Assembly: GCA_023512255.1 (NCBI GenBank)
Contig: JAILZY010000150.1
Coordinates: 1-5,027, forward strand
DNA: 5,027 nucleotides
Direction of reading: 5' to 3'
Origin: a bacterium
Lineage (GTDB): Bacteria > SZUA-182 > DTGQ01
Positions 94-4,839 of the stretch are shown piece by piece. Positions within the stretch are counted from its first letter, which is position 1, and each line of letters opens with the position of its first letter. The position numbers and the translations under genes were made by a program. The notes beneath the pieces are model-generated. The model was not told the DNA's origin, did not search any database, and saw only the letters and a list, made by a program, of their open reading frames with translations.

Positions 94-122
94 TTGACAA
101 AATGATCTTCTCCTGGTATTGT
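94..122 (+). promoter_or_regulatory. sigma70-type promoter candidate (TTGACA-N17-TATTGT)
   Basis: A perfect -35 hexamer TTGACA (94-99) is followed after exactly 17 bases by TATTGT (117-122), which keeps the key T, A and final T of the -10 consensus. TGG directly before the hexamer supplies an extended -10 TGn. The predicted start is near 129. It points toward the large repeat-protein gene but would give a leader of about 410 bases that passes through the terminator at 385-448. This is the best plus-strand promoter I can see in the upstream region. Confidence 0.55.
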
Positions 123-129
123 TAAACTA

Positions 130-162
130 TAATTTATCCTTAATTTATCCTTCATTTATTGG
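130..162 (+). repeat. 11-bp tandem direct repeats, response-regulator-like site
   Basis: TAATTTATCCT occurs twice head to tail (130-140 and 141-151), followed by a degenerate third copy TCATTTATTGG (152-162). The 11-bp spacing places equivalent bases about one helical turn apart, the layout bound by OmpR/PhoB-family regulators. The half-sites can be read as TTTATC-N5-TTTATC-N5-TTTATT or as CTTAAT-N5-CTTCAT. The regulator cannot be named from sequence alone. The repeats lie just downstream of the predicted start at about 129, so they would repress that promoter or serve another one. Confidence 0.45.
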
Positions 163-168
163 CAATGG

Positions 169-190
169 CTGGTAATCAGGAAGATTACAG
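169..190 (+). repeat. inverted repeat / leader hairpin
   Basis: GTAATC (172-177) and GATTAC (183-188) are perfect inverted repeats around a five-base loop AGGAA. CT/AG outside a one-base bulge extends the stem to eight pairs. If transcription starts near 129, this is the first hairpin of the leader. It could equally be a dyad operator. Confidence 0.3.
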
Positions 191-199
191 CTCAGCAGC

Positions 200-221
200 T
201 AGTTAACAAATAGTTAACAAA
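200..221 (+). repeat. perfect 11-bp tandem repeat, TTAACA-N5-TTAACA site
   Basis: TAGTTAACAAA is repeated exactly head to tail (200-210 and 211-221). The core TTAACA-N5-TTAACA has the same 11-bp periodicity as the repeats at 130-162. It also resembles the published Bacillus PhoP box form (TTAACA-like hexamers with about five-base spacing). That resemblance is noted as a family-type pattern; it does not identify the regulator, especially in a diderm. Each half contains the palindrome GTTAAC. Confidence 0.45.
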
Positions 222-384
222 ATCCGTTAGCAGATGGAAATCCCCATCGCTGGGCAATAACTTATCGGCTCAAGTAAGCTGGTTTGATTGATCGGTATCC
301 TGTCTGGCAGAAAGATTTATCTTGATTGCTACCAGATATAGGAAAACCATAAGAGAAAAAGCCTAAGAGCTATAGACAAAGTTG

Positions 385-448
385 AAGCCATGAAGGCTTC
401 TTGCGGCAGGGAATGCCAGCGAGAAGGTTCATGGCTTTTCGTTTTTTT
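385..448 (+). terminator. strong intrinsic terminator or attenuator upstream of the repeat-protein gene
   Basis: AAGCCATGAA (385-394) pairs perfectly with TTCATGGCTT (428-437). Inside that stem, CTTCTTGC (397-404) pairs with GCGAGAAG (419-426) with one G-U pair, and GGCA/TGCC closes a five-base loop GGGAA. About 22 base pairs in total are followed by TTCGTTTTTTT (438-448), the form of a Rho-independent terminator. No complete plus-strand gene lies upstream in the window for it to end. It must therefore end a leader or small RNA, or act as an attenuator for the gene at 538. GAAGCC (384-389) can alternatively pair with GGCTTC (395-400) across ATGAA, which is mutually exclusive with the long stem. 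Confidence 0.75.
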
Positions 449-537
449 AGGATATTTTTTAGCCTATGTGTTCAGGGTATATATTTGTATATCTTTTTTA
501 ATCTTATCTTAATGAGAAAAATAAGGAACAATACGGG

Positions 538-2488: not shown

Positions 2489-3124
2489 ATGTCCATAATT
2501 GATTACTTCTTAAAAGGTGGACCGCTGATGTTTCCCATTTTACTCTGCTCTCTGGTCTCTGTGGCTGTGGTTTGCGAGCGGCTATATAGATTTCGCCAGG
2601 CACGGCTCAAGGACCCGCTCTTTCTGGATAGAATCAAGGAAATGATTAAGGATGGCAAGGTTGATGAGGCTCTGAGGGAGTGTAAACAGGCTAAAAACCC
2701 TATCGGGAATGTTCTAGCCAGGGGAATCGAAAAATCCCACTACAGCGGATGTTGCAAGAATCTTTCCGAGATAGAAAAGGCTATCTCCCATGCTGGCCAG
2801 CAGGAGCTTCGAGAGCTTGACCGCTATATGCCTACCTTGGCTACTATAGCTAACATTGCTCCCCTGCTTGGGCTTTTTGGCACCGTAACCGGACTAATCA
2901 AGGCCTTTATGGTTATCCAGCAACTAGGCGGGAAGGTCAATGCCAGTGTCCTGGCTGGCGGCATCTGGGAGGCGATGCTGACTACTGCTTTTGGCCTATC
3001 TGTAGCCTTGCCCACGGTAGTAGCCTATAATTACCTGGTGGGGAAAATAGAAAATTTCAGCCACGAAATGCAGGACTCATCGGTTGAGCTTCTTGAGGTT
3101 CTGCACGAAAAACAGATAGTGTGA
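2489..3124 (+). CDS. exbB: ExbB, MotA/TolQ/ExbB-family proton channel subunit
   Basis: This 211-residue inner-membrane protein forms the pentameric proton channel that powers TonB together with ExbD. Three membrane segments are visible at about 12-32, 117-139 and 160-182, with a cytoplasmic loop between the first two, the standard family topology. The signature ANIAPLLGLFGTVTGLIKAF (121-140) ends in the second segment. WEAMLTTAFGL (160-170), with E161 and T165/T166, then P175 and N181, matches the conserved third segment that lines the proton path. Length is typical for short ExbB/TolQ proteins. A strong Shine-Dalgarno sequence supports the start. exbD begins 32 bases downstream. TolQ is the alternative name, but the TonB-type gene downstream and absence of tolA/tolB/pal favour ExbB. 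Confidence 0.92.
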   Translation: MSIIDYFLKGGPLMFPILLCSLVSVAVVCERLYRFRQARLKDPLFLDRIKEMIKDGKVDEALRECKQAKNPIGNVLARGIEKSHYSGCCKNLSEIEKAISHAGQQELRELDRYMPTLATIANIAPLLGLFGTVTGLIKAFMVIQQLGGKVNASVLAGGIWEAMLTTAFGLSVALPTVVAYNYLVGKIENFSHEMQDSSVELLEVLHEKQIV

Positions 3125-3156: not shown

Positions 3157-3558
3157 ATGCTCGACCTAACCTATAGAAGAAAGCTTGACGCCTCAATGAA
3201 TATGACTCCAATGATTGACATCGTTTTTCAATTGCTAATCTTCTTTCTCCTGACCACAAACTTTATTACCACTGAGGGAATTCAGGTGAAACTCCCGCAG
3301 GCCAAGGCGGCTGCCGCTCAGATACAGGAGGAGATCACGGTTTTTATCTCCAGAGAGGGCAGGGTGTTTCTCCAGCAGCAGGAGTTGAACGAAGGGCAAC
3401 TTCAGAGGCGTCTTCAGACCCTGATCGCCAAGAGTCGGAATAAGCTGGTGATTGTTAAGGCGGATCGGGAGATTGCGGTGAACAAAGCGGTCAAGGTAAT
3501 GGATATCGCCAAAAGGGCCGGGGCGGAAAGGCTTTGTATCGCCACGGACAGGGATTAG
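3157..3558 (+). CDS. exbD: ExbD, TolR/ExbD-family biopolymer transport protein
   Basis: The 133-residue product has the ExbD layout: a short cytoplasmic N-terminus, one membrane helix (about 19-39) and a periplasmic domain. MNMTPMIDIVFQLLIFFLL (14-32) contains the membrane Asp D21, equivalent to the protonatable Asp essential for proton-motive-force use in ExbD/TolR. VKLPQA (44-49) is the usual post-membrane motif. The C-terminal domain ends with the family pattern IVKADREI...VMDIAKRAGAERLCIAT (98-130). The start is preceded by GGGGA at 3143-3147, nine bases away, a modest ribosome binding site. It works with the adjacent ExbB. No clear terminator follows, only a weak GGCCT/AGGCC pairing at 3559-3591. 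Confidence 0.93.
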   Translation: MLDLTYRRKLDASMNMTPMIDIVFQLLIFFLLTTNFITTEGIQVKLPQAKAAAAQIQEEITVFISREGRVFLQQQELNEGQLQRRLQTLIAKSRNKLVIVKADREIAVNKAVKVMDIAKRAGAERLCIATDRD

Positions 3559-3595
3559 GGCCTTGGGCTGCTTTGGTTTGGCTGGGAGGCCTGTG

Positions 3596-3697
3596 ATGGT
3601 TGAAAGAGTCGGTCAAATGGCTAAGTGGTTCTATCGTCAAGTCCGAGAGCAGAGCCAATTATCTACAATAGACTTTATCGTAAATATAACTAATTGA
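3596..3697 (+). CDS. possible 33-residue small protein downstream of exbD
   Basis: The ATG at 3596 is preceded by GGGAGG (3584-3589) at six bases, a better Shine-Dalgarno than that of exbD. The peptide begins MVERVGQMAKWFYRQVREQS and ends at TGA 3695-3697. It is amphipathic, with basic and aromatic residues, has no signal peptide and no membrane segment, and I recognise no family. It starts 37 bases after the exbD stop and could be translated from the same message. The last ten codons run into AT-rich DNA, so it may instead be the remnant 5' end of a truncated gene. Chance is a real alternative at this length. Confidence 0.3.
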   Translation: MVERVGQMAKWFYRQVREQSQLSTIDFIVNITN

Positions 3698-3780
3698 AAA
3701 TAAACAACTTTTAAAAAACTAAAGATTCAACCTAACTCTTTATATATCAATAGGTTACTTAAAACTTATTAAGTCTAATT

Positions 3781-3873
3781 AATTGTATGGGGGTAGGGGA
3801 ATTACCCAATCAATTGTGGGTAGGAGTACCTTTGTAGGGATCAATTGTAGTAGGGGAGTTCCTTGTGCCCGCT
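3781..3873 (+). repeat. three degenerate 31-bp tandem repeats
   Basis: AATTGT begins each copy at 3781, 3812 and 3843, exactly 31 bases apart. It is followed by G-rich GGGTAGGGGA-like sequence, then a pyrimidine-containing TTACC, TACC or TTCC block. Copies 1 and 2 both end in ATC. Copies 1 and 2 can form small stems: GGGTA/TACCC at 3791-3807 and GGTA/TACC at 3819-3830. The sequence resembles the GTAGGGG...CCC intergenic repeats seen in many environmental genomes, but that link is by eye only. Confidence 0.5.
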
Positions 3874-3878
3874 CAAAG

Positions 3879-3911
3879 CTTGCGCTCTTTGTTAGCGAAA
3901 GGAGCGCTAAG
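3879..3911 (+). repeat. 12-pair hairpin, GCGCTC/GAGCGC stem
   Basis: GCGCTCTTT (3882-3890) pairs with AAGGAGCGC (3899-3907) through nine pairs including one G-U, around the loop GTTAGCGA. Beyond a single bulged T3908, CTT/AAG adds three more pairs. No T-tract follows, so it is unlikely to be an intrinsic terminator. It lies about 90 bases before the tonB start and may be a leader structure or an operator. Confidence 0.4.
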
Positions 3912-3918
3912 GAATAGG

Positions 3919-3954
3919 TTTTGCAAAAATAAGTTTCAAAGAAATAGTTTGAAA
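3919..3954 (+). promoter_or_regulatory. palindrome and dyad upstream of tonB, possible operators
   Basis: TTTTGCAAAA (3919-3928) is a perfect 10-bp palindrome. TTTCAAA (3934-3940) and TTTGAAA (3948-3954) are perfect inverted repeats separated by seven bases. Both lie 50-85 bases before the tonB start, a plausible regulator-binding position. They do not match the Fur 19-bp box closely, so iron control is not supported by what I can see. Confidence 0.3.
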
Positions 3955-4002
3955 GAATAAATAAAGAGCCAACTAACTGTAAAGATTAAGATTACTTATA
4001 TT

Positions 4003-4839
4003 ATGGCTAAAAGAAGAGCAAAGAATACGGCAATAAGATACGGTTTTCTTTTTTCCTTTTTGTTGCATGCCCTTTTTTTTCTGGTTTTGGGGCTGATGGT
4101 TCAATCCCGCTCTTTTGATCTTCCGATCGAGGTAGAGCTGAAAGATCTGTCCCTAGAGGAGGATAGCCAGCTTAAAAACCAGGTTGTGCAAGACCTTCCC
4201 CGGCCATATTTACCCATCAAGCCGCCTTTGCCTCAGAGCGAAGAAGCAGCTAGAGGCAAACTTGCGGCTCAGCTTATGCCAGCCCCTCTTCTCTCGGCTA
4301 GCTCAATTCGTCCGCTTCCGACCTCGGCAGCAGCATCCAGGGCCGTGGAAAAGATCTACACTCCCCTGCCACCTGATTCTGCCCAGCGCTCTGTGGGCAG
4401 CAATTTCGGTGGGTCGGGATTTGGCTATTCTTCGGGACAGTCTGGCAGCGGATCAGCCTCCTTTGGCCAAATAAAACCGATCCCCTTGCCCCAGATTCCG
4501 CTTCGGACCGCGGCTGCCTATGAGCAGACTGATCAGACCATAGCCTATAGGCACCTGATCCACCAGCACATCAACCGCTACAAACGGTTTCCGCCCTTGG
4601 CTGTCAGACAGGGCTGGGAGGGAAGTGTTGGTCTTAGATTTTTACTTCATCGCAATGGGCAGGTGGAGGAAATTCAGGTAATTAAAAGCTCAAAGATCGC
4701 CATTCTCGATGAAGCGGCTGTGGCTGCGGTCAAAAGCGGCAGCCCCTTTCCTCCTTTTCCTAACAGTATTACTGACCCATCTCTCTGGTTTGAGGTAACC
4801 TTGAGTTTTGAGCTGCGGGGACGCTACGGCCTAATGTGA
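4003..4839 (+). CDS. tonB: TonB-family energy-transducing protein
   Basis: This 278-residue protein spans the periplasm and passes force from ExbB/ExbD to outer-membrane receptors. A basic N-terminus (MAKRRAK) is followed by a membrane helix at about 13-33 holding the TonB SxxxH motif (S18, H22), which couples to the motor. Residues 60-125 are Pro-rich (RPYLPIKPPLP at 67-77) but lack long Lys-Pro/Glu-Pro runs. A Gly/Ser-rich linker occupies about 130-155. The TonB C-terminal domain covers about 181-271: RFPPLA in place of the usual YPxxA, then GSVGLRFLLHRNGQV, IKSSKIAILDEAAVAAVK, and the closing strand FEVTLSFEL. The ribosome binding site is weak: no GGAG-type sequence precedes the ATG, and TATATT abuts it. 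No other start lies ahead of the helix. It is detached from exbD by 444 bases. Confidence 0.9.
   Translation: MAKRRAKNTAIRYGFLFSFLLHALFFLVLGLMVQSRSFDLPIEVELKDLSLEEDSQLKNQVVQDLPRPYLPIKPPLPQSEEAARGKLAAQLMPAPLLSASSIRPLPTSAAASRAVEKIYTPLPPDSAQRSVGSNFGGSGFGYSSGQSGSGSASFGQIKPIPLPQIPLRTAAAYEQTDQTIAYRHLIHQHINRYKRFPPLAVRQGWEGSVGLRFLLHRNGQVEEIQVIKSSKIAILDEAAVAAVKSGSPFPPFPNSITDPSLWFEVTLSFELRGRYGLM

Follow-up and report, generated by a model that had tools for sequence, protein, structure and literature searches.

The leader of the operon encoding an Asp-rich repeat protein, ExbB and ExbD carries a small RNA element which recurs before apparent nickel-uptake genes and probably acts as a factor-dependent transcription antiterminator of a nickel-uptake regulon, whatever the factor. 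It appears to turn nickel import on and off in a manner not described before. The evidence is comparative throughout: genome sequences were used to compute the element, its two alternative pairings, an upstream hairpin (P1), the promoter, the gene set and the distribution against the repressor NikR. The window, i.e. the whole analysed stretch of 5,027 bases, is the complete contig G000:C13, and G001 was the comparison genome of the same genus. Feature coordinates are given in Table 1.

Table 1. Features of the window.
Feature	Position	Strand	Basis or remark
Promoter TTGACA-17-TATTGT	94-122	+	consensus scan; hexamers kept in G001; transcription start expected near 129
P1 GUAAUC-AGGAA-GAUUAC, presumed recruitment hairpin	172-188	+	conserved in G001; recurs in homologous leaders
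P2 GAAGCC-AUGAA-GGCUUC, putative antiterminator hairpin, exclusive with the terminator	384-400	+	covariation at 5 of 6 pairs, unmatched in 500 shuffles
Terminator: outer stem 384-394 with 428-438, inner stem-loop 397-426, U-tract to 448	384-448	+	fold z-score; covariation at 5 of 10 pairs
Asp-rich repeat protein, 632 aa, N-terminal hydrophobic segment	538-2436	+	ORF; controlled gene
exbB	2489-3124	+	PF01618
exbD	3157-3558	+	PF02472
tonB	4003-4839	+	PF03544; 444-base gap from exbD, co-transcription with exbD not assumed

Terminator and P2 as exclusive structures

The hexamers of the sigma-70-type promoter (94-99 and 117-122, 17 nt apart) match the consensus at 10 of 12 positions and include an extended -10 TG, which agrees with the original prediction. 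Both are letter-identical in G001 despite the divergence of most of the leader, in which, apart from them, mainly the block around 172-188 and the terminator are kept. Promoters of the same kind stand before many other copies of the element. The upstream leader (122-384) was discarded as a conserved aptamer, as no convincing homologue was found beyond the promoter-proximal block in G001. Several hairpins had been proposed for this part; the z-score of 129-380 is only -2.2, and the hairpin at 172-188, which had not been singled out, is alone conserved and recurrent. Since 129-380 is not conserved outside P1, the idea of a small RNA of about 320 bases was not supported.

The segment 384-438 folds into a conserved stem of 23 pairs (RNAfold; 22 had been claimed), followed by the U-tract of an intrinsic terminator. 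Its energy is -34.2 kcal/mol and its z-score about -5.7 to -6.0, no shuffle being as stable. The competing GAAGCC/GGCTTC pairing, also noticed before, corresponds to P2, and its segment (384-400) folds to -7.9 kcal/mol on its own. In an alignment of 37 copies, the terminator stem was paired in 98.4% of cells, with double changes at 5 of 10 pairs, and P2 (AAGCC-AYGAA-GGCUU) in 91.9%, with double changes at 5 of 6; each covariation score was matched by none of 500 shuffles. These figures are inflated by the relatedness of the copies, so that more weight falls on individual compensated changes where copies have diverged. Such changes occur in the nik-operon copies of G001 (ACC-ACGAA-GGU ... UUCGUGGU) and G005 (GUC-ACGGA-GAC ... 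GCGUGAC), where the changed base is still partnered in both structures. Whereas conservation is poor among its terminator partners, the GGCUU segment is nearly invariant, which suggests that selection acts on the alternative pairing or on its recognition. The inner stem-loop is real, its sequence unconstrained; it is almost missing in the receptor leaders of G259 and G121.

The 5' leader holds a terminator with an exclusive alternative pairing. Both pairings are conserved, covary and recur in leaders of one functional gene set, which strongly favours the attenuator with two competing folds that was originally predicted. The absence of compensatory changes in homologues had been named beforehand as evidence against this idea; they were found, and the idea survives. 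In all of 35 copies, folding favours the terminator over P2 by 6.9 kcal/mol or more, so the leader should terminate unless helped. A leader peptide starting from the AUG within P2 was rejected, because element lengths are not kept in multiples of three.

Distribution of the element and the genes behind it

With the leader as query, the hairpin was matched at orthologous genes and also at numerous further sites in related genomes. Its consensus reads (A)AAGCCAYGAAGGCUUU, a variable stem-loop and the partner UUCRUGGC, then U's. About 35 copies of the P2/terminator element were found in 8 of 9 class genomes and 10 copies in 4 genomes outside the class; G005 has a single diverged copy, detected by covariance model. 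For the pattern search, the outer arms were fixed and positions 9-13 left free. This arm-only pattern matched in 7 class genomes alone and in 0 of 51 genomes outside the class, and the reversed control pattern had no match in any genome searched. A second covariance model (E-values of these models being rough) was run on 386 genomes and added G284, G270, G259 and G121, which are kin at domain level only, and no other genome.

A strong palindrome in many copies, some with T-runs on both sides, would also be expected of a constitutive terminator, a dispersed palindromic repeat or a DNA operator without RNA switching. We consider this very improbable: the copies are located in 5' leaders, in several cases as two elements facing outward between divergent genes, and the genes behind them make up one functional set; the arms are fixed while inner sequence and length vary, the two RNA pairings covary, and P1 loops recur.

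Among the commonest families of 100 downstream genes were the TonB-dependent receptor plug (12) and barrel (10), DUF4198 (10), ABC ATPases (8), CbiM (6), CbiQ (5), FmdE (5) and ExbB (4); FecCD, periplasmic binding proteins and tetrapyrrole methylases were rarer (3 each). The labels NikK, NikL, NikM, NikN, NikQ, NikO, hypE and CooC were assigned by family membership, gene order or inspection. For NikK and NikL, a role as periplasmic components of nickel transporters has been proposed (PMC545781). In G284, the element stands before a NikMNQO-type operon running on into hypC and hypD (Pfam) and a hypE-like reading frame, a run belonging to [NiFe] hydrogenase maturation. One element precedes exbB-exbD-tonB in G259 and one a methyltransferase-tonB-exbB-exbD-receptor run in G270; in the window the element precedes the repeat protein-exbB-exbD operon, with tonB further on. 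The set has exceptions: an element also stands before amino-acid permeases, a methyltransferase and an excisionase-like HTH protein, which are not obviously nickel genes, and before some unknowns. We give high weight to the element and to the view that the downstream genes form a nickel-type uptake set. The transporter families concerned carry nickel or cobalt, so cobalt is conceivable as well.

The element defines a candidate regulon and predicts new nickel genes, namely those for the Asp-rich repeat protein, DUF4198 proteins, FmdE, exported tetrapyrrole methylases and dedicated exbBD-tonB sets. The repeat protein has about 30 repeats of the type DxNxDGxxDxW and no Pfam family; an NCBIfam match (Lsa25.6) was below cut-off. 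Its homologues in G001 and G002 sit behind an element and that in G003 has none in front, hence control of orthologs by the element is not universal. The homologue in G004 lies inside a receptor-DUF4198 operon, for which reason the repeat protein of the window may be an outer-surface or periplasmic metal-binding protein. Tetrapyrrole methylase-like proteins (PF00590; L097:966-1874, L100:3777-4664, L107:3697-4563) with an apparent N-terminal export signal adjoin TonB receptors and DUF4198 genes under presumed element control. The gap between exbD and tonB in the window (3559-4002) has no obvious gene and no copy of the element.

The upstream hairpin and the proposed mode of antitermination

P1 and P2 are the only C-ANGAA-G hairpins with a stem of at least 5 bp in the window, both strands having been scanned. 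Many P2 elements are likewise preceded by a second, separate hairpin that repeats the closing pair and loop of P2; in most cases it stands downstream of the promoter. An ANGAA hairpin was found within 300 nt upstream in 24 of 48 leaders (shuffled mean 0.78, maximum 4; reverse strand 2), and in 20 of 48 when a C-G closing pair was demanded (0.18 expected). P1 had been spotted in the alignment of window and G001 and was counted afterwards; as a guard, loops were also tallied without a presupposed loop. In stems of at least 6 bp within 200 nt upstream of the 48 elements, the commonest 5-nt loops were AUGAA (9 leaders) and ACGAA (4). In 15 aligned P1 hairpins, themselves picked by this pattern, the stem sequences are free and C-AnGAA-G is constant. 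The P1-P2 distance ranges from ~40 to >200 nt. Only half of the leaders have a recognisable P1, and in several leaders lacking it the P2 element follows the predicted promoter directly. P1 lies outside the terminator, so pairing within the terminator does not explain its conserved loop; recognition by something can.

The simplest route for switching on would be a factor which holds P2 and is recruited by P1. From the comparative evidence we infer a protein factor, nickel as the signal and induction at low nickel. RNA polymerase would start near 129, make P1 and reach the P2/terminator segment. By default, the 5' arm of P2 would pair with the 3' arm (428-438), forming the strong terminator, and transcription would stop near 448. 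Under nickel shortage, the ANGAA loops would be recognised by an RNA-binding factor, loaded on P1 where P1 exists, which would keep P2 closed; the terminator would be blocked and polymerase would proceed into the repeat protein-exbB-exbD operon, or, elsewhere in the genome, into genes for TonB receptors and NikMNQO. Once nickel suffices, the factor would be released and uptake would stop. Of the options offered originally, a regulator-dependent attenuator fits best and an undescribed riboswitch is less likely.

A small metal riboswitch, in which the RNA itself (P1, P2 and inner hairpin) would bind Ni2+ or Co2+ unaided by protein and tip the balance between P2 and terminator, has in our estimate a small chance of being correct. 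The same letters are kept across lineages sharing only the domain, and so far no protein has been seen to accompany the element everywhere. However, the conserved element consists of two tiny hairpins and a terminator arm, which makes a riboswitch less likely; the inner hairpin is sequence-free and almost absent in two copies, and a loop repeated in P1 is typical of protein recognition. Nor does the sequence relate to riboswitches of Rfam: cmscan matched no Rfam family in the window and no Rfam riboswitch, RF02683 and RF00174 among them, in ~233 kb of element loci, in line with the earlier failure to match riboswitch cores. Matches to mir-7918, Plastid-rpoB and L20 leader at permissive thresholds were below gathering scores and look like chance. 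A literature search on the motif letters and nickel attenuation found nothing relevant. Should RNA alone sense the metal, the element would rank with the smallest riboswitches; should a protein take part, this would be a metal-responsive RNA antiterminator, a kind not known to us so far.

Several known systems resemble the element in part. LicT/SacT-type RAT antiterminators stabilise, as proteins, a hairpin overlapping the 5' arm of a terminator. Their layout is similar; hairpin, signal and gene set differ. The NiCo riboswitch (czcD, RF02683) is a larger multi-helix aptamer before efflux-type genes; it shares with the element RNA control tied to nickel or cobalt genes, but here uptake genes are controlled and cmscan gave no match. 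Similar in layout is the dual-hexaloop motif of ANTAR targets (EutV, NasR, AmiR), with two small same-loop hairpins, of which the second overlaps an intrinsic terminator and excludes it, and termination by default (PMC3369931, PMC8934654). It is nevertheless unlikely that the factor is an ANTAR-domain protein and the element a variant ANTAR target. The layout of P1 followed by a P2 overlapping the 5' arm of the terminator, present in the window and about half of the leaders, and the A at loop position 1 are shared. In contrast, the ANTAR loop is a hexaloop with A1 and G4, whereas here it is a pentaloop A-N-G-A-A with G at position 3 and an invariant C-G closing pair. P1 is often missing, and its distance from P2 is long and variable, whereas 20 extra nt abolish EutV action (PMC8934654). 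The genes controlled are those of nickel uptake rather than eut, nas or ami, and no ANTAR family was among the 25 commonest families of the 100 downstream genes. Owing to the pentaloop G3 and the P1-P2 distance, the element was not filed as an ANTAR target.

Two further arrangements were seen. In G007, two complete elements stand in tandem before FmdE genes (G007:C75:4777-4901 and G007:C117:3486-3685; L116, L114); they carry the variants CATGAA and CACGAA, and the first may act as P1 for the second. A half element near 12199 on the minus strand of G000:C89 (L037/L097) retains P1 (TTGCCTC-ATGAA-GAGGCAA) and P2, and has in place of the terminator arm a ribosome-binding site just before a TonB-receptor gene. 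It could be either a decayed copy or a translational version.

Signal, NikR and CooT

A calcium or metal signal had been envisaged; nickel is the most likely one, rather than calcium. An antiterminator of the same kind responding to cobalt or a corrinoid instead is doubtful. CbiM/CbiQ, tetrapyrrole methylases and chelatase-like AAA proteins downstream would suit it, but hypC-hypD in one operon, DUF4198/NikK-type components, CooT and the exclusion of NikR point to nickel. Cobalamin riboswitches (RF00174), which likewise belong to corrinoid/cobalt-related genes, are present in all nine class genomes, elsewhere than at the hairpin loci scanned, so these genomes have B12-type control besides the element.

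In its kind of targets, the element resembles the NikR regulon of delta-proteobacteria, which covers nikMNQO, nikK and nikL under the operator GTGTTAC-N13-GTAACAC (PMC545781); NikR, however, is a DNA-binding repressor, whereas the element is RNA and occurs in genomes without NikR. NikR (PF08753) was absent from G000 and every class genome with the element; it was found in one class genome, G004, which has neither element nor CooT. There, GTGTTAC-N13-TTGACAC (G004:C11; L121:4899-4925) overlaps a promoter-like sequence of the receptor-DUF4198-repeat-protein operon. This site is two mismatches from the delta-proteobacterial consensus, and is weak on its own, as 17 of 200 whole-contig shuffles contain such a site. 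A similar receptor-DUF4198 operon in G002 has the RNA element at its leader. Apparently, the element takes the place of NikR at nickel-uptake genes; as there is a single negative genome, mutual exclusion is suggested rather than proven. Many bacteria that lack NikR have no known regulator of nickel uptake; of the organisms with NikABCDE, less than half were found to have NikR (PMC2667541).

As the antitermination factor, CooT (PF10133; solved relative 6fan) is the best candidate, though a tentative one, which we infer from its gene context and properties. CooT has so far been known as an accessory protein of Ni-CODH, and its group (COG1532) carries the annotation of predicted RNA-binding. The protein is a dimer and binds nickel with a Kd of 9 nM (PMC6006190). 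A CooT operon, with DUF3842, lies directly behind elements in G000 and G001, and in G005 the CooT gene adjoins a transporter-like membrane gene and an ATPase gene. The search for CooT covered the class genomes. CODH, full-length or partial, accompanies CooT in every case and is missing from G004, which gives the absence of CooT there another possible cause; given this co-occurrence, the presence of CooT was not accepted as proof of a role as factor. The element nevertheless provides CooT with a concrete candidate role: it is conceivable, if far from assured, that a metal-sensing RNA-binding protein of the CooT family is a nickel-dependent antiterminator which reads ANGAA hairpins and replaces NikR in several lineages. 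A truncated CooT fragment (L140, G001:C33:16645-16734) lies just upstream of one element, as if this had been a cooT operon formerly.
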